This document shows, one piece after another, positions 8,211 through 59,498 of a stretch of DNA of 64,000 nt. Positions within the stretch are counted from its first letter, which is position 1; every line of letters begins with the position of its first letter. This DNA is from Thermodesulfatator sp. (GTDB lineage: Bacteria > Desulfobacterota > Thermodesulfobacteria > Thermodesulfobacteriales > Thermodesulfobacteriaceae): the NCBI GenBank assembly GCA_027064165.1, contig JAMOQE010000065.1, forward strand, positions 1 to 64,000, given 5' to 3'. Made by a program: the position numbers and the translations under genes. The notes below the pieces were generated by a model. It was not told the DNA's origin. It made no database searches and was given only the letters and a program-made list of their open reading frames with translations.

Positions 8211-8774
8211 TCAGCAATATTTTTCTAAACAGATCTGATCTTTTCCTGAAATTTCCTGAAAATAAACAGATACATACTCATCTGGCTCAATTTTTTTTAC
8301 TCGCAGGCTTACATAATTTGGCTCTATGGGAAGTTCTCTCCCTCCTCTGTCCACAAGTACTGCAAGTTCAATTTTTTTTGGCCTTCCAAGGTCTATCAAG
8401 GCATCAAGTGCAGCCCTTGTAGTTCTCCCGGTATAAATTACATCATCCACTAAAATAATCACTTTGTCGTCAATGGGAAAAGAAATGTCTGTTTTTTTCA
8501 GGTGAGGTTGAGAAGAAATACTTGTCCAGTCATCTCTATAGAGGGTAATGTCAAGAAAGCCAGTAGGAGGTACTACTCCAAGCTTATCTTTAAAGAACTT
8601 GCAGAGCCTTTGGGTAAGCGGAGTTCCTCCGGTTTGAATTCCTATAAAAGCTACATTTTTAAGTCCTGGATGGGCTTTTAAAATGGCTTCTCCCAGGTTC
8701 GTTACCAACTTTGCAAATTTTTTGGGCCCGGCTATTACCTTTTTCTTTTTTTGAGATAAAATTTCTTTATCCAT
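8211..8774 (-). CDS. pyrR: PyrR: pyrimidine operon regulator / uracil phosphoribosyltransferase
   Basis: VILVDDVIYTGRTTRAALDAL PRPP motif, FIGIQTGGTPLTQRL, LYRDDW. Confidence 0.9.
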   Translation of the reverse strand: MDKEILSQKKKKVIAGPKKFAKLVTNLGEAILKAHPGLKNVAFIGIQTGGTPLTQRLCKFFKDKLGVVPPTGFLDITLYRDDWTSISSQPHLKKTDISFPIDDKVIILVDDVIYTGRTTRAALDALIDLGRPKKIELAVLVDRGGRELPIEPNYVSLRVKKIEPDEYVSVYFQEISGKDQICLEKYC

Positions 8775-9231: not shown

Positions 9232-10340
9232 AGCTAAATGTAGGTATTGTAGGACTTCCCAATGTAGGAAAGTCCACCATATTTAATGCCCTGATTCAGA
9301 ATATAAAAGCAGAAGTTGCAAACTATCCTTTTTGTACCATAGAGCCAAATGTAGGCGTTGTAGCTGTTCCTGATGAGAGGCTTTTTAAAATTGCAGAAGT
9401 TGAAAAGAGTGCCAAGGTGACGCCTGCAACCATAGAGTTTGTGGATATTGCAGGGCTGGTAAAAGGAGCAAGTAAAGGCGAGGGTTTGGGGAATCAGTTT
9501 TTGTCTCACATAAGAAAAGTTGCTGCAATTGCCCAGGTGCTCAGGTGCTTTGAAGATCCAGAAATTGTGCATGTTGAGGGAAGCATTGATCCTGTAAGGG
9601 ATGCTGAGATTATTGAGCTTGAACTTATTCTTGCAGATCTTCAGAGCGTTGAAAAAAGAATTGCAAGAATTGAAAAGGTTGCCAAAAGCGGAGATAAAAA
9701 GGCTAAAAAAGAGCTTGAAGTGCTTTTTAAAGCAAAGGAGGTGCTGGAATCCTTTTCAACTTTAAGGAGCAAAAAGGAGTTTTTTTCTGAGGAGGAATTA
9801 AAGCTTCTTTCATCTACGCTTTTCCCTTTAACTTTAAAGCCCATGATGTACATAGCCAATGTTTCTGAAGGGGATCTGCCAGATGGAGAGGGGAATCCTT
9901 ATGTAAAAGCACTCAAAGAAAAGGCAGATAAGGAGGGGATTCCAGTTATAATACTTTGTGGTAAAGTAGAAAGTGAGCTTGTTGCGCTTTCTCCAGAAGA
10001 AAGGACAGAGTATCTGGAAATGCTTGGTCTTTCTGAACCAGGGCTTTACAAGATGATAAAAAAGGGATATGAGCTCCTTGATCTTATTACTTTTTTTACA
10101 GCTGGTCCCAGAGAGACAAGGGCCTGGACAATAAAAAAAGGCACCAAAGCCCCTCAGGCTGCTGGAGAAATTCATTCAGATATGGAAAAAGGGTTTATTG
10201 CTGCTGAAGTGCTTTCCTGGGAGGATTTTGTAAAAGCAGGCTCTTTTTCAAAGGCCCGTGAGCTGGGGATGTTAAGAATTGAAGGGAAAGACTACGAAGT
10301 AAAAGACGGAGATTTAATTTATTTCAGATTTAATGTTTAA
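9228..10340 (+). CDS. ychF: Redox-regulated ATPase/GTPase YchF
   Basis: [35 protein letters not shown]-terminal TGS-like domain; GTG start overlapping the upstream gene. Confidence 0.96.
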
Positions 10341-10365
10341 CAAGTTGTGATTTTTGTGGTATAAT
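10337..10365 (+). promoter_or_regulatory. Candidate sigma70-type promoter for the PilZ-OPRT gene
   Basis: TTAACA (10337-10342) -N17- TATAAT (10360-10365), 8 nt before the ATG at 10374. Confidence 0.65.
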
Positions 10366-10373
10366 AAAAAATT

Positions 10374-11345
10374 ATGGATAAACGCAGATTTTTGAGGATT
10401 CCTATCTCCTTAGAAGCGGTTTATATTTTTGATGAAAAAGATAGGACAGGTAAAATAAAGGATATAAGCTATGGAGGAGTTTTTATTGAAACAGAAGATG
10501 CTCCTCCTCTTGGAGAGATTGTTCCGCTTGTGCTCACTATAGAAGGGGTAAGTCCTGCTATAAAAATTTTTTTAAAGGGAAGGGTGGTAAGAAGGGTTCC
10601 GGGGAAAGGTTTTGCTTTAAAATTCGTGGAAATTTCTCCTGAAAGTTTAAATCATTTGAAAAATCTACTTTATTTTAATTCTCCGTGCCCGGAAGAAATA
10701 GAAAAGGAATTAAGGGAATTTCTGGGTGAGGCCTATCCTCTTGCACAGATTTTGAAAGAGTTAAACATTACCTGTTTAAAAGAAACTTTGATGGATTATA
10801 TTCTGGAAAGGGCTTTTCTTTATTCTCCAGAGGAGCCTTTTACTCTGGCAAGCGGAGAAAAAAGCCCATATTATCTTGATTGTCGCAAAATTACTCTTTA
10901 TTCTCCTTCGTTTTCCCTTATAGGGGAACTTTTCTGGGAAGAAATGAGGTTTCTCAACATTCAGGGTGTAATGGGGATGAGTATTGGAGCAGATCCTATT
11001 GTAGCTGCAATACTTGCAAAGGCTGCAGAGGAGGGAGTGGAGCTTGAGGGGCTTCTTGTAAGAAAGGAGCCCAAAAAGTATGGCACCAGAAGGCTTATAG
11101 AGGGCAATGTAGTGCCTGGTCAGAGGATTGTTGTGGTGGAAGATGTGGTTACTACTGGTGGCTCAGTGTTAAAGGCTGTTAAAGCTGCTGAGGAGGCAGG
11201 CCTTAAAATAGCCAAAGTAATCGCTCTGGTAGATAGAGAGGCAGGGGGTAAAGAAAATATTGAATCTCAGGGTTATAATTTTTTTGCATTTTTCACCCTT
11301 TCTGAAATAATAGAGGCATTTGAAAAAAGAGGCAAAAAGCAGTGA
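10374..11345 (+). CDS. pyrE: PilZ domain-orotate phosphoribosyltransferase fusion protein
   Basis: N-terminus MDKRRFLRIP (RxxxR) and DISYGG (D/NxSxxG) of PilZ; C-terminus FTLASGEKSPYYLDCR, RKEPKKYGTRRLIEG, VVVEDVVTTGGSVLKA of OPRT, in one uninterrupted frame. Confidence 0.92.
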   Translation: MDKRRFLRIPISLEAVYIFDEKDRTGKIKDISYGGVFIETEDAPPLGEIVPLVLTIEGVSPAIKIFLKGRVVRRVPGKGFALKFVEISPESLNHLKNLLYFNSPCPEEIEKELREFLGEAYPLAQILKELNITCLKETLMDYILERAFLYSPEEPFTLASGEKSPYYLDCRKITLYSPSFSLIGELFWEEMRFLNIQGVMGMSIGADPIVAAILAKAAEEGVELEGLLVRKEPKKYGTRRLIEGNVVPGQRIVVVEDVVTTGGSVLKAVKAAEEAGLKIAKVIALVDREAGGKENIESQGYNFFAFFTLSEIIEAFEKRGKKQ

Positions 11346-13555: not shown

Positions 13556-14474
13556 AACAATTTTTTAAAAATTCACAGTCTTTTTTTATTTGCAGTCTCA
13601 ATTCTTCTGGAGAGGCAAACTTTTTTTCTTCTCTTACAAATTTTAATACTTCAACTCTTAGCACTTCTCCGTAGAGGTTGCCAGAAAAGTCAAAAAGATG
13701 CACCTCTACGGAGAGCTCTTTCTCGTCAAAAGTGGGATTTCTTCCTATGTTCATAGCTCCAAAGAACTTCTGGCCCTTAACCATTGCCTTTACTCCGTAA
13801 ACTCCAGGAGGAGGAAGGAGTTTTTCCTCAGGTACTTTTAAGTTTGCCGTGGGGAATCCAAGCTTCACACCTCTTCCCTTGCCTTTTATTACTTCTCCAG
13901 AAAAGAAATAAGGATGTCCAAGAAGCTCTCCTGCCTTTTCCACCTCTCCTTTTTCTATAAGTCCTCTTATAGTGGAGCTTGATACTGTAAGGCCATTTAC
14001 CTTTATAGGCCCAAGGCTTTCTGCCCGAAATTCAAATACCCTACCAAGCCTTTTTAAAACATCTATATTTCCTTCTCTTCCCTTGCCAAATCTGAAGTTA
14101 AAACCCACCACCACGGCCTGCACCTTAAGCCCATCTACCAGATACTTTTCCACAAAAAGATCTGCAGAAAGCTCTGCAAGCACTCTTGTAAAAGGAACAA
14201 GACAGATGTGATTTATTCCCTCTTTTTCAATAAGCTCAAGTTTTTCTTCAATGGTGGTCAAAAGTTTGAAATGGGATTCTGGAAAGAGTACTTTTCTGGG
14301 ATGGGGATCAAAGGTTACCACAACTGGTGTGGCTTTAAGCTCATTTGCAAGTTCTTTTGCCCGTTGCAAAAGTGCTTTGTGCCCTAAATGAATACCATCA
14401 AAACTGCCTATGGTAATTGCTGTTCTGAATTCTAAAGGAAAATCTTCAGGAGTAAAGATCTTCAGGCCTTTCAA
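13533..14474 (-). CDS. ribF: Bifunctional riboflavin kinase/FAD synthetase RibF
   Basis: TIGSFDGIHLGHKALL, VTFDPHP, GRGVKLGFPTANL. Confidence 0.96.
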   Translation of the reverse strand: MKGLKIFTPEDFPLEFRTAITIGSFDGIHLGHKALLQRAKELANELKATPVVVTFDPHPRKVLFPESHFKLLTTIEEKLELIEKEGINHICLVPFTRVLAELSADLFVEKYLVDGLKVQAVVVGFNFRFGKGREGNIDVLKRLGRVFEFRAESLGPIKVNGLTVSSSTIRGLIEKGEVEKAGELLGHPYFFSGEVIKGKGRGVKLGFPTANLKVPEEKLLPPPGVYGVKAMVKGQKFFGAMNIGRNPTFDEKELSVEVHLFDFSGNLYGEVLRVEVLKFVREEKKFASPEELRLQIKKDCEFLKNCFKSFPLS

Positions 14475-15582
14475 ACTTTCCCTCCATTAATTTGAGGAAA
14501 GAATCAAAGAGATACACCGAATCATGAGGCCCTGGAGCATTTTCTGGATGATACTGCACAGAAAATGCTTTTATTTCGGGCACAAATATGCCTTCCAGGG
14601 TTTCATCATTTAAGTTTATATGGGTAACAAGTGTATCCTTAGGAAGTTCTTCTTTCTTTACGCAGAAGCCATGATTTTGCGAGGTAATTTCCACTTTTTT
14701 CGTAAAGAGGTTAAGCACAGGATTGTTAATTCCTCTGTGCCCAAACTTGAGCTTAAAAGTGCTTGCCCCCAAAGCCTGACACAGAATTTGATGCCCAAGG
14801 CATATCCCAAAAATTGGTTTTTCCCCGAGGAGCTTTTTTACATTTTCCACGATGGTTTTGAGGGCTGCCGGGTCCCCAGGGCCATTTGAGAGAAAAACCC
14901 CGTCAGGATTGTGCTTTAGCAGCTCTTCTGCAGGAGTATAAGCCGGAAATACAAGACATTCAACCCCTCTTTCTGCAAAAAGCCTTAGCTGATTCAGCTT
15001 AAGTCCAAAGTCATATACCGCTACTTTAAATTTGCCTGTGCCTTTAAAGCTTTTTCTATTTTCTTTGCCCTTATTTCCGTAGTAATAGACTTCTGGAGAA
15101 GTTACCTCTTTAACAAAGTCTCTTCCTACATAATCTGGACTTGCTTTTATCTTTTCAAGAAACTCCTTGGGATCAAGGGTTTCAGTGGTGATGCCTCCTT
15201 TCATGGCACCATAAATTCTCAGGTGTCTTGTAAGTGCCCTCGTGTCTATCCCTTCCACACCAAGAATTCCGTGCTCTTTTAACCAGTCCCCTAAGGATTT
15301 TTCTGCCCTCCAGTTGCTATAACGGGGTTGATATTCCCTTACAATAAAACCCGCTACCTGGATTTTTTCACTCTCCCAGTCCTCAGAGTTTACTCCGTAA
15401 TTACCTATAAGGGGATAGGTCATGGTCACAATCTGTCCACGATAGGAAGGATCCGTAAGGATTTCCTGATAACCTGTAATACCGGTGTTAAAAACGATTT
15501 CTCCAAAGGTTTCTCCTCTCCCTGTGAAGGAGCGCCCCCAGAAACAGGTGCCGTCTTCCAGCATAACAAGGGCCTTCATCAA
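14446..15582 (-). CDS. carA: Carbamoyl-phosphate synthase small subunit CarA
   Basis: FLSNGPGDPAAL, FGICLGHQILCQALGA, VQYHPENAPGPHDS glutaminase motifs. Confidence 0.97.
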   Translation of the reverse strand: MMKALVMLEDGTCFWGRSFTGRGETFGEIVFNTGITGYQEILTDPSYRGQIVTMTYPLIGNYGVNSEDWESEKIQVAGFIVREYQPRYSNWRAEKSLGDWLKEHGILGVEGIDTRALTRHLRIYGAMKGGITTETLDPKEFLEKIKASPDYVGRDFVKEVTSPEVYYYGNKGKENRKSFKGTGKFKVAVYDFGLKLNQLRLFAERGVECLVFPAYTPAEELLKHNPDGVFLSNGPGDPAALKTIVENVKKLLGEKPIFGICLGHQILCQALGASTFKLKFGHRGINNPVLNLFTKKVEITSQNHGFCVKKEELPKDTLVTHINLNDETLEGIFVPEIKAFSVQYHPENAPGPHDSVYLFDSFLKLMEGKFERPEDLYS

Positions 15583-16755
15583 GCAGCCTCCCTTGCCTTC
15601 TCTTTTAACTCTTTTTTTGCCTTCCAGATAAGAAATTCCCTGATAAAGTCATCCAGCTCACCATCAAGCACCTCATCCACTTTGCCTGTTTCATAGCCTG
15701 TGCGGTGATCTTTGACAATTCTATAGGGGTGAAGAGTATATGTTCTAATCTGGTTGCCCCAGGAAATTTCTTTTTTTTCTCCTATAAGGGCTTCTTTTTT
15801 CTCCTGAAGCTTCTGCCTTTCAAGCTGATAAAGTCTGGCTTTAAGTATTTTAAGGGCTGTCATTTTATTAAAATATTGACTTCTTTCATTTTGACAGGTA
15901 ACCACTATGCCTGTGGGTAGATGAGTTATTCTTACGGCAGACTCAGTTTTGTTTACATGCTGCCCGCCGTGTCCACTTGCTCTCATGGTCTCAATTTTTA
16001 AGTCCTCAGGCTTTATTTCTATCTCTACATCCTCTTCAATTTCAGGGATTACCGTGACAGAGGCAAAAGAGGTGTGCCTTCTTGCATTGGCATCAAAAGG
16101 AGAAATGCGGATAAGACGATGAATGCCCTTTTCTCCCTTGAGGAAACCATAAGCCCATGGACCTTCTATAAGGAGAGTGGCATTTTTTATGCCTGCTTCT
16201 TCTCCAGGTAAACTGTCAACCAGTTTTACCTGATACCCCTTCTTTTCAGCCCAGCGCACATACATTCTGAGAAGCATGTAAGCCCAGTCCTGAGCATCAG
16301 TGCCCCCTGTGCCTGCATGGATGCTTAAAATAGCAGAAGAACCATCGTATTCTCCCGAAAGAAGCAGTTTACACTCTCTCTCTTTAAGTTTAGCTTCAAA
16401 ACAGGAAAGCTCATTTAAGAATTCATTTAATACCTCAAGAGACTTTTCCTCTTTGTAGATTTCGTACCACTCTGAGATGTCTGCAAGTTCTCCTGCCAGT
16501 TCTTCAAAAAGGGAAAGCCTTTCTGCAAGTTGAGACCTTTCTTTAAAAAGGGCTTTTGTTTGCGGAGAATCCCAGCTGTCTATTTTTTGAATTTTTTGTT
16601 CAAGCAGTGAGAGTTTCTCCTTTATGCCTTCGGGGTCAAAGACACCCCCTTAAGTCTTCAATTTTTTCTTTGAGCTCTTTGAGCTTTTTTTCAAAATCTA
16701 CATTCTTATAAGCTTGAAGAGTGTGCTTAGCTTCTTTAACTTTTGCCTTTGCCAT
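15579..16755 (-). CDS. prfB: Peptide chain release factor 2, complement(join(15579..16637,16639..16755)) with +1 programmed frameshift
   Basis: GGQ motif (SGHGGQHVNKTESAVRI) and RF2-type SPF (RISPFDANARRHTSFASV). Upstream 39-codon frame MAKAKVKEAKHTLQAYKNVDFEKKLKELKEKIEDLRGCL ends at TGA, with the rest in +1. Confidence 0.95.
16635..16650 (-). promoter_or_regulatory. prfB autoregulatory +1 frameshift site
   Basis: Minus strand reads AGGGGGTGTCTTTGAC: SD-like AGGGGG, slippery CTT, in-frame TGA followed by C. Confidence 0.95.
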
Positions 16756-57349: not shown

Positions 57350-58558
57350 ATGGATTTAAAGGCACTTTTTGAAAAGACAAGGGATTTAGTCTATCAAACA
57401 GGCCAATATCTTAAGGAAGCCTATTTTGCCTCTCCTGAAGTGTATCACAAAGGGAAAATAGACCTCGTTACTACGGCTGACTTTGAGTCTGAGAAACGCT
57501 TAAAAACAGGGCTTTCCGGCTTCTTTCCGGATATCCCCATTGTGGCTGAAGAGAGTTTTAAAGGAGAGGGGGTTCCTGAAGGCTTTTACTGGCTTATAGA
57601 TCCTCTTGACGGCACCATCAATTTTGCCCACAAACTTCCCTGGTTTGCTATTTCTGTAGCCCTTATGAAGGGCAAAGAGCCTCTCCTGGGAATAATTTAC
57701 AATCCCATTACTGAGGAATTTTTCTGGGCTATAAAAGGAGAAGGGGCCTATCTTAATGATAGAGCTATAAAGGTGTCTCAAACTGATAACCTTATTGATT
57801 CTCTTCTTTGCACAGGTTTTCCAGTAAAATATGTTATGGAAAAGGCGTATGCCTTTATGCCGCTCTTTCAAAAATTTATGGAAAGGTGTCAGGGAGTTAG
57901 ACGATTTGGCTCAGCTGCGCTTGATCTTGCGTATGTTGCCTGTGGAAGATACGAGGCTTTCTGGGAGCCTTATCTTCATCCATGGGACACAGCAGCAGGT
58001 ATGCTCCTTGTCCTTGAGGCAGGTGGTAAGGTTACTGATTATTTTGGTCACCCCTATGATCCTTTTAAAGACACTGTGGTCGCTTCCAACGGACTTGTTC
58101 ACGAAGAAATTATAAAACTTACTTCAAAATATCATCCTGTCTCGGTGAAGCCTGCACGCAACCCATTCCCCACCGTGGATATAATTATAGAGTACAAAGG
58201 AAAGATTGTGCTTATTTATAGAAAAAATTATCCTGAAGGCTGGGCTATTCCCGGAGGTTTTGTGGATTATGGAGAAACCCTTGAGCAGGCAGCTATAAGG
58301 GAGGCAAAAGAGGAAACTAATTTAGATGTAGAACTTCTTTATCTTCTTGGTTGTTATTCTGATCCTAAAAGGGATCCTCGTTTTCATACCGTCACTACGG
58401 TTTTTGTTGCCAGAGGAGAAGGGGAACCTAAGGCACAGGACGATGCCAAAGATTTAGGGCTTTTTTCCATTGAAGAAATTCCCTGGAAAGAGCTTGCTTT
58501 TGACCATGCAGAGATTTTGAAAGACTACTTAAAGAAAAAAGGAGAAAAAGGTGCTTAA
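57350..58558 (+). CDS. Inositol monophosphatase family-Nudix hydrolase fusion protein
   Basis: IMPase: [46 protein letters not shown]. Nudix box: [26 protein letters not shown]. Single frame. Confidence 0.93.
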
Positions 58559-59498
58559 TGATTATATAAAGATTTCTGAAAAGATCCTGAAGGAGGTTAA
58601 AATTCTTGTTTTTGTGAAAGAGAAACTCTTGGAATCATTGCTAAGAGAATTTTTTGAGACTCATTTGACTGTAAAAACAGAATTTTTTTATGAAAAAGCT
58701 ACCCTTCTTGCTCATCTTTCAGAAGGGAGCTCTTTTTATCAAATAATAGTTTTAGCTCTTCAAGGAGAAATAGAAGAAGAATTGGAATTTTTAAGACAGA
58801 TAAAGTCCTTTGCAAGGGATTCTAAAATTTTAGCTATTTTGAACTATACGCAGAATACTGATATTGCCTGTTATTTTGAAACAGGAGCAGATGATATTAT
58901 TTTTAAACCTTTTACTTTTGGGGAGCTGAAAGCAAGGCTAATTCGTTTGCTACAGGAGTATTTTTTGATAGAAAAATTGAAAAAATATATAATAGAAGAC
59001 CCTTTGACAGGAGTATATAATCGTAGATTTTTTGAGGATGCTATAAGAGAAGAATCGTATAGAGCTTTGAGGCAGAAATATCCTTTAACTCTTTTTATGA
59101 TTGATCTTGATAAGTTTAAATTTTATAATGATACTTTTGGCCATCAGGCTGGGGACCTTTTGCTTAAAAAAGCCGGCCAAACTTTTCTTGAAAGTACCAG
59201 AAAGGGTGTGGATAAAGTGTGTAGATACGGAGGAGACGAATTTTCCATTATTCTTCCTCATATTCATTGGGAAAAATCTCTGGTAGTAGTAAATAGAATT
59301 TTTGAGAATTGGGAAAAGAACAGACCTAAAGAAGTGAGCCTTTCCATAGGCGTTGCAGAGCTTATAAAACGAGAAACTCTGGAAGAGAGTGTCTCATTTC
59401 TTATAAACAGAGCAGATACTGCTTTATATGATGCAAAGAAAAAAGAAGGTCTTTCCTATGAGGTTGATCCGGAATCTAAGAAATTAACTTTAGCCTGA
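58551..59498 (+). CDS. Diguanylate cyclase (GGDEF) with degenerate receiver-like N-terminal domain
   Basis: [55 protein letters not shown]-terminus ends [23 protein letters not shown] like REC domains. GTG start overlapping the upstream stop. Confidence 0.9.

Follow-up and report, generated by a model that had tools for sequence, protein, structure and literature searches.

The PilZ effectors of c-di-GMP that are known act mostly in motility, exopolysaccharide, secretion, chemotaxis and transcription (PMC12564702). MapZ regulates an enzyme, the methyltransferase CheR1, by binding it when loaded with c-di-GMP, and in the cellulose synthase BcsA c-di-GMP alters the gating of the active site (PMC12564702). 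On the side of nucleotide metabolism, work on pyrimidine mutants of E. coli connects UMP synthesis, via the cyclase YedQ, to cellulose under c-di-GMP control (PMC3281075). Between pyrimidine supply and biofilm decisions the link seen so far is genetic, as in this E. coli case, with no direct molecular connection such as a c-di-GMP receptor attached to an enzyme of the pathway.

We have analysed a stretch of DNA of 64 kb, hereafter the window, in which a PilZ domain and an orotate phosphoribosyltransferase (OPRT, encoded by pyrE) are carried by one and the same open reading frame. Coordinates of the features discussed below are collected in Table 1.

Table 1. Features of the PilZ-OPRT fusion gene and of its surroundings in the 64-kb window.
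Feature	Position	Strand	Basis and remarks
Fused PilZ-OPRT gene, encoding 323 aa; the genome's sole OPRT (pyrE)	10374..11345	+	ORF, Pfam, NCBIfam
Sigma-70-type promoter TTAACA-17-TATAAT, extended -10 TG	10337..10365	+	Consensus scan, 11/12 matches
PilZ domain, aa 1-100	10374..10673	+	Pfam PF07238; AF2 beta-barrel plus helix; Foldseek MapZ, Alg44
RxxxR c-di-GMP switch motif, R4-R-F-L-R8	10383..10397	+	R4, R8 invariant in 23/23 fusions
D/NxSxxG motif, D30-I-S32-Y-G-G35	10461..10478	+	Canonical here; canonical in 18/23 fusions
Helical connector: aa 106-120 (tail helix of PilZ) plus the N-terminal half of helix aa 122-147	10674..10778	+	AF2 DSSP
OPRT domain, aa 136-323	10779..11342	+	TIGR00336; Foldseek to MtOPRT 5hki, E 1.2e-18
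Flexible catalytic loop, R230-K231-E-P-K234-K-Y236-G-T238	11061..11087	+	R230, K231, K234 invariant in 23/23 fusions
PRPP-binding motif VVVEDVVTTGGS, V253-S264 (E256, D257)	11130..11165	+	E256, D257, T260, T261, G262 invariant in 23/23 fusions
REC-like plus GGDEF protein	58551..59498	+	GGDEF E 2.8e-38; REC slightly below cut-off

The single unbroken frame described in the first-pass annotation was recovered with the same coordinates. From stop to stop it measures 325 aa, and just two sense codons precede M1. The -10 hexamer of this strong, near-consensus promoter ends 8 bases before the ATG at 10374. As the promoter lies just ahead of this codon, a leaderless message beginning with the PilZ part is probable, and the promoter position also suggests that a single polypeptide is probably made from the gene. 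A check for two separately translated proteins gave no sign of them: near the junction, start codons in frame occur only at aa 127, 139 and 140, none of them with a Shine-Dalgarno sequence, and separate translation of the OPRT part was rejected on this ground. That a sequencing error would have joined two genes, or that one frame would yield two proteins, is hardly credible. No point in its favour was found, and the frame is open in 23 genomes, including single-contig assemblies (4 of the 22 further genomes sharing the fusion) and named culture-collection strains; the missing internal ribosome-binding site and a promoter suited to a leaderless start at M1 also speak against it.

At the other end of the gene, the stop codon shares bases with the GTG start codon of an argJ-like gene that follows directly (11342-11345), and this overlap suggests translational coupling of the two. 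The genes adjoining the fusion vary among genomes, with a pstS-like gene or a TauE-like permease elsewhere. Since the neighbours vary by lineage, an operon-level hint of coupling is absent. A PyrR-like gene (8211-8774, minus strand) and carA (14446-15582, minus strand), both identified from their translations, lie less than 5 kb from the fusion. Searches of the 64-kb window for a PyrR-binding RNA element or a c-di-GMP riboswitch returned zero Rfam matches.

The N-terminal part of the protein was proposed at first reading to be a PilZ domain with both c-di-GMP-binding elements, RRFLR for RxxxR and DISYGG for D/NxSxxG, and both are indeed present. The Pfam model PF07238 matches aa 2-100 with an E-value of 1.3e-15 (58 bits for a gathering cut-off of 22.5), and it is found in all 23 fusions at E <=0.01. 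Across these fusions, only R4, R8, G79, F80 and S91 are invariant within aa 1-100. Every sequence has D or N at position 30, S32 is kept in 20 of the 23 and G35 in 21. The complete D/NxSxxG motif occurs in 15 of 15 fusions from the window's genus, in 3 of 7 from Caldimicrobium and in 0 of 1 from the third genus. A consistent loss of the motifs among homologues, which would have refuted c-di-GMP control, is thus not observed: RxxxR and D/N30 are retained in 23 of 23 fusions and D/NxSxxG in 18 of 23. In the five fusions with a substituted S32 or G35 (four from Caldimicrobium, one from the further genus), the change touches the second motif, and on this basis much of Caldimicrobium may have lost or modified control by c-di-GMP. 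The Caldimicrobium variants read DFSLAS, DMSLGS, DIGLGG or DLGFGG, and a weak response or none is predicted for them. This erosion is the chief argument against a uniform role of c-di-GMP, and also provides a natural negative control.

Substitution rates were estimated by the Nei-Gojobori method. For close pairs within the window's genus, dN/dS is 0.08-0.16 for PilZ, with one pair at 0.24, and 0.06-0.14 for OPRT, these ranges referring to the pairs for which a PilZ value was computable. In Caldimicrobium, where dS is near saturation, the values are 0.09-0.22 for PilZ versus 0.05-0.07 for OPRT. The dN/dS of a decaying passenger domain is expected to be near 1. A ratio of about 0.1, equal to that of the enzyme part, and the invariance of R4 and R8 therefore disfavour the idea of PilZ as a decayed passenger. 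Judged from these ratios, the domain, including both arginines of RxxxR, is under strong purifying selection.

Selection of this kind could also be imagined if PilZ only aided the folding or heat stability of an essential enzyme, free of any signalling. The hosts carrying the fusion are thermophiles, the D/NxSxxG motif is eroded in part of the lineage, and the Caldimicrobium ratios just given have PilZ evolving somewhat faster than OPRT, all of which would suit such a role. However, a purely structural appendage would not be expected to keep exactly the two c-di-GMP arginines, located at a flexible N-terminus, invariant in 23 of 23 sequences, and sister genera have an unfused OPRT. We consider this explanation quite unlikely.

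The C-terminal part had been described as a complete OPRT with its catalytic loop and PRPP motif. This holds, with a match to TIGR00336 (pyrE, NCBIfam) over aa 154-311 at 132.1 bits, above the curated cut-off of 106.8, and with the checked substrate-contact residues in place. Pribosyltran (Pfam) matches aa 244-295, the closest solved chains by sequence are OPRTs, and the fused OPRT lies below the reach of narrower equivalog models such as NF001729. R171, R230, K231, K234, E256 and D257, present in 23 of 23 fusions, correspond by alignment to R38, R94, K95, K98, E120 and D121 of MtOPRT, whose roles have been described (PMC5430920). The histidine of the flexible loop is missing; its place is taken by Tyr236 in 22 of 23 fusions, the loop reading K-K-Y-G versus K98-A-H-G in MtOPRT. 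To our knowledge, the loop histidine is usual in OPRT, but membership of the family does not rest on that residue. Tyr is found at this position in one unfused OPRT as well (L015), so Tyr236 is neither specific to the fusion nor the mark of a lost function.

Each fusion genome has a single locus scoring above the pyrE cut-off, namely the fused frame. No second, unfused pyrE was found in the fusion genomes, the other PRT-family matches of the window genome staying below the pyrE cut-off. An unfused pyrE as a backup of the fusion was rejected accordingly.

The fusion occurs in 23 of 32 genomes of the Thermodesulfobacteriaceae, a family of thermophilic sulfur bacteria, 15 of the 23 from the window's genus, seven from a second one and one from a third. 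Named carriers are Thermodesulfobacterium hydrogeniphilum, T. thermophilum, T. hveragerdense and T. geofontis, together with Caldimicrobium thiodismutans and Caldimicrobium MAGs. When 298 genomes of the phylum were sampled, the full-length protein proved confined to this one family (identity 51-62%), and all other matches listed from that sample start within or after the connector, and hence are OPRT alone. A stand-alone homologue of the PilZ domain is carried by 6 genomes of two other genera of the family. Three family genomes remain: G303 (64% complete), where the match is a PilZ domain on a chemoreceptor, G314, which is matchless, and G318, with a weak and broken match. The G303 chemoreceptor gene (L070:995-2845) encodes a methyl-accepting chemotaxis protein with the PilZ domain at its C-terminus. 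No independent PilZ-OPRT fusion was found in the 298 phylum genomes outside the family, and a scan of 85,488 species, which gave 39 confirmed loci, likewise showed none. The latter scan used two short OPRT peptide patterns only, so that distant or independent fusions could escape it.

The sister genera encode a free pyrE and a free PilZ of 123 aa, the latter adjoining radA in 5 of 6 loci. This free PilZ aligns with aa 1-120 of the fusion, and the alignment extends over the helical tail with its terminal LGEA. All six copies (L064-L069) show DxAxxG or NxAxxG, not D/NxSxxG, and c-di-GMP binding is possibly altered in them, a point that speaks against c-di-GMP control of the fusion; DxSxxG is common in other stand-alone PilZ relatives of the phylum. 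A separate PilZ orthologue was not found in the fusion genomes (at E 1e-6 each genome gave a single match), and another PilZ search of these genomes added only two weak matches, in frames of about 650 aa.

Phylogenetic trees were calculated for each part of the protein. In the OPRT tree, every fusion lies on one side of a branch supported at 100/99, and the closest outgroup is formed by the OPRTs of G314 and G318, which are sister-genus genomes without a clear PilZ homologue. In the PilZ tree, the fusions form one clade (98/96; 91/89 when the tree is run without five sister sequences) beside the stand-alone PilZ proteins of the same family and order. The Caldimicrobium fusions group together at 100/98 with OPRT and weakly, at 65/69, with PilZ. 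Because both trees give a single clade, we infer from them that PilZ joined pyrE in one fusion event, followed by vertical descent. An operon origin of the fusion, with pilZ and pyrE as former neighbours, is unsupported, since the sister PilZ lies beside radA and OPRT is absent from those loci. The unfused pyrE genes that were scanned showed no PilZ up to 1.5 kb away. In G314 and G318 (L110:1-1356 and L115:1-1356), a candidate c-di-GMP phosphodiesterase gene of the HD-GYP type (HD_5, the match having been tested for L110) lies directly upstream of the unfused pyrE.

A structural model was obtained with AF2 from the 23 sequences (monomer, ligand-free; mean pLDDT 87.8, pTM 0.71). It places the PilZ barrel first, followed by helix 89-102, helix 106-120 and a continuous helix 122-147 running into alpha-1 of OPRT. 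The six-stranded barrel is matched by Foldseek to 5xly, 4xrn and 4rt0 with a probability of 1.00, at moderate TM-scores of about 0.55-0.65. In MtOPRT the orotate site is closed by movement of the hood, and alpha-1 is part of that hood (PMC5430920). Because alpha-1 is a moving element in MtOPRT, the model and this analogy indicate that PilZ is attached to a mobile element of the catalytic domain, through a near-rigid helical junction.

The geometry of the junction bears on the possibility that c-di-GMP-loaded PilZ binds another protein, thereby localising OPRT or keeping an old adaptor function, with OPRT kinetics unaffected. A near-rigid helix is not the floppy linker that would suit such an arrangement, and placing an adaptor on an essential enzyme of which the cell has no other copy would be odd unless both were coupled. 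On the other hand, the fused PilZ goes back to an adaptor-like protein that stands alone and is widespread across the phylum, and the fusion genomes are without a separate orthologue, so the fusion must do the former PilZ job. We regard this possibility as unlikely. The signal might also travel in the reverse direction: occupancy of OPRT by PRPP, orotate or OMP would alter the output of PilZ, and a motility or surface effector would thus read the pyrimidine or PRPP status of the cell. Ligand binding closes the hood (PMC5430920), and in the model the hood is continuous with the PilZ helix. In the fusion genomes, moreover, the effector has no second, separate copy. Against a reverse signal, which we hold to be very unlikely, count the lack of a known partner for this PilZ and the direction of the bacterial examples of which we know, BcsA and MapZ-CheR1, all running from PilZ to the enzyme.

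The window genome has 19 GGDEF, 4 EAL and 3 HD_5 (HD-GYP-type) domain matches and, on this domain evidence, is equipped both to synthesise and to degrade c-di-GMP. It has only four PilZ matches, the fusion included. One of the 19 GGDEF matches is the protein, encoded in the window itself, that the first-pass annotation had mentioned (Table 1); the flagellar genes it also mentioned are read from translations only. The preceding frame (57350-58558, plus strand; 402 aa) combines an inositol monophosphatase family domain (aa 11-260) with a NUDIX domain (aa 275-392). Elsewhere in the window, prfB (release factor 2; 15579-16700, minus strand) is split into two frames, with a break near ...LRGCL-TGA / GVFDPEG that looks like the ordinary programmed +1 frameshift.

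Considering the sequence, the model and the analogies together, we give a slight preference, little better than an even chance, to a mechanism in which PilZ binds c-di-GMP and thereby, by way of the hood, alters the activity of OPRT. Rising c-di-GMP would bind PilZ at RxxxR and D/NxSxxG, and the bound nucleotide would pull the flexible N-terminus onto the barrel. PilZ would then be repositioned against the hood or the dimer of OPRT, the closure of the hood or of the loop would be altered and OPRT activity changed. De novo UMP supply would in this way follow the motile/sessile signal. As to the sign of the effect, we lean slightly towards inhibition, by analogy with MapZ-CheR1; activation, feeding the UDP-sugar demand of the sessile state, is nearly as likely. 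Allosteric control of UMP synthesis by c-di-GMP had been suggested from the first inspection of the sequence. With this suggestion the purifying selection on PilZ, its likeness to MapZ, the helical junction to the hood and the rich c-di-GMP machinery fit; the alternative offered alongside, competition for the nucleotide pool, is unsupported in this analysis. Tentatively, with somewhat less than even confidence, the proposal may be widened to the family: the sole OPRT of Thermodesulfobacteriaceae would be set by c-di-GMP and would govern all de novo UMP, and with it UTP and UDP-sugars, as the outcome of a single fusion event, with re-tuning or loss in part of Caldimicrobium.

Control of UMP synthesis by c-di-GMP is plausible from the sequence. 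A PilZ domain on the only OPRT of the cell would wire c-di-GMP directly to nucleotide synthesis. The fusion, fixed across a clade of genera, would be a PilZ effector whose output is a housekeeping enzyme of nucleotide synthesis. With a single chain, a thermophile source and natural variants having intact and eroded motifs, the question of c-di-GMP control is tractable at the bench.

Among known systems, no solved PilZ comes closer than MapZ (PA4608) of Pseudomonas aeruginosa, whether by profile (E 4e-10 across aa 2-117, a stretch that takes in the helical tail) or by fold (5y4r, 5xly), 5xly being its complex with CheR1 and c-di-GMP. In the 5xly chain, R9/R13 and D35/S37/G40 align with RxxxR and DxSxxG of the fusion. 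MapZ is, however, a separate single-domain adaptor acting on CheR1, whereas the PilZ studied here sits covalently on an enzyme of nucleotide synthesis; the fusion is thus not a stand-alone adaptor of the MapZ type, its homologue in sister genera being the one that stands alone. Alg44, a c-di-GMP-bound PilZ, is likewise matched in profile and fold. BcsA resembles the fusion in having PilZ covalently on an enzyme, but it is a membrane exopolysaccharide glycosyltransferase and its PilZ domain is C-terminal. As cited in PMC12564702, the PilZ-DnaK chaperones of Myxococcus xanthus carry PilZ on a housekeeping protein, in this case a chaperone and not a metabolic enzyme. MtOPRT (5hki/5hkf) has the OPRT fold and the catalytic residues in common with the fusion, but is without PilZ and has the loop histidine. 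In UMP synthase, OPRT is also part of a fusion, but there it is joined to OMP decarboxylase, the two being consecutive enzymes, and not to a signal receptor. The first-pass annotation knew of no characterised PilZ-OPRT enzyme, and no paper on one was found in the open-access literature, an absence that is not proof. The conserved PilZ-OPRT domain combination is apparently undescribed: PilZ and OPRT are individually known modules, and what is new is, it appears, their combination.
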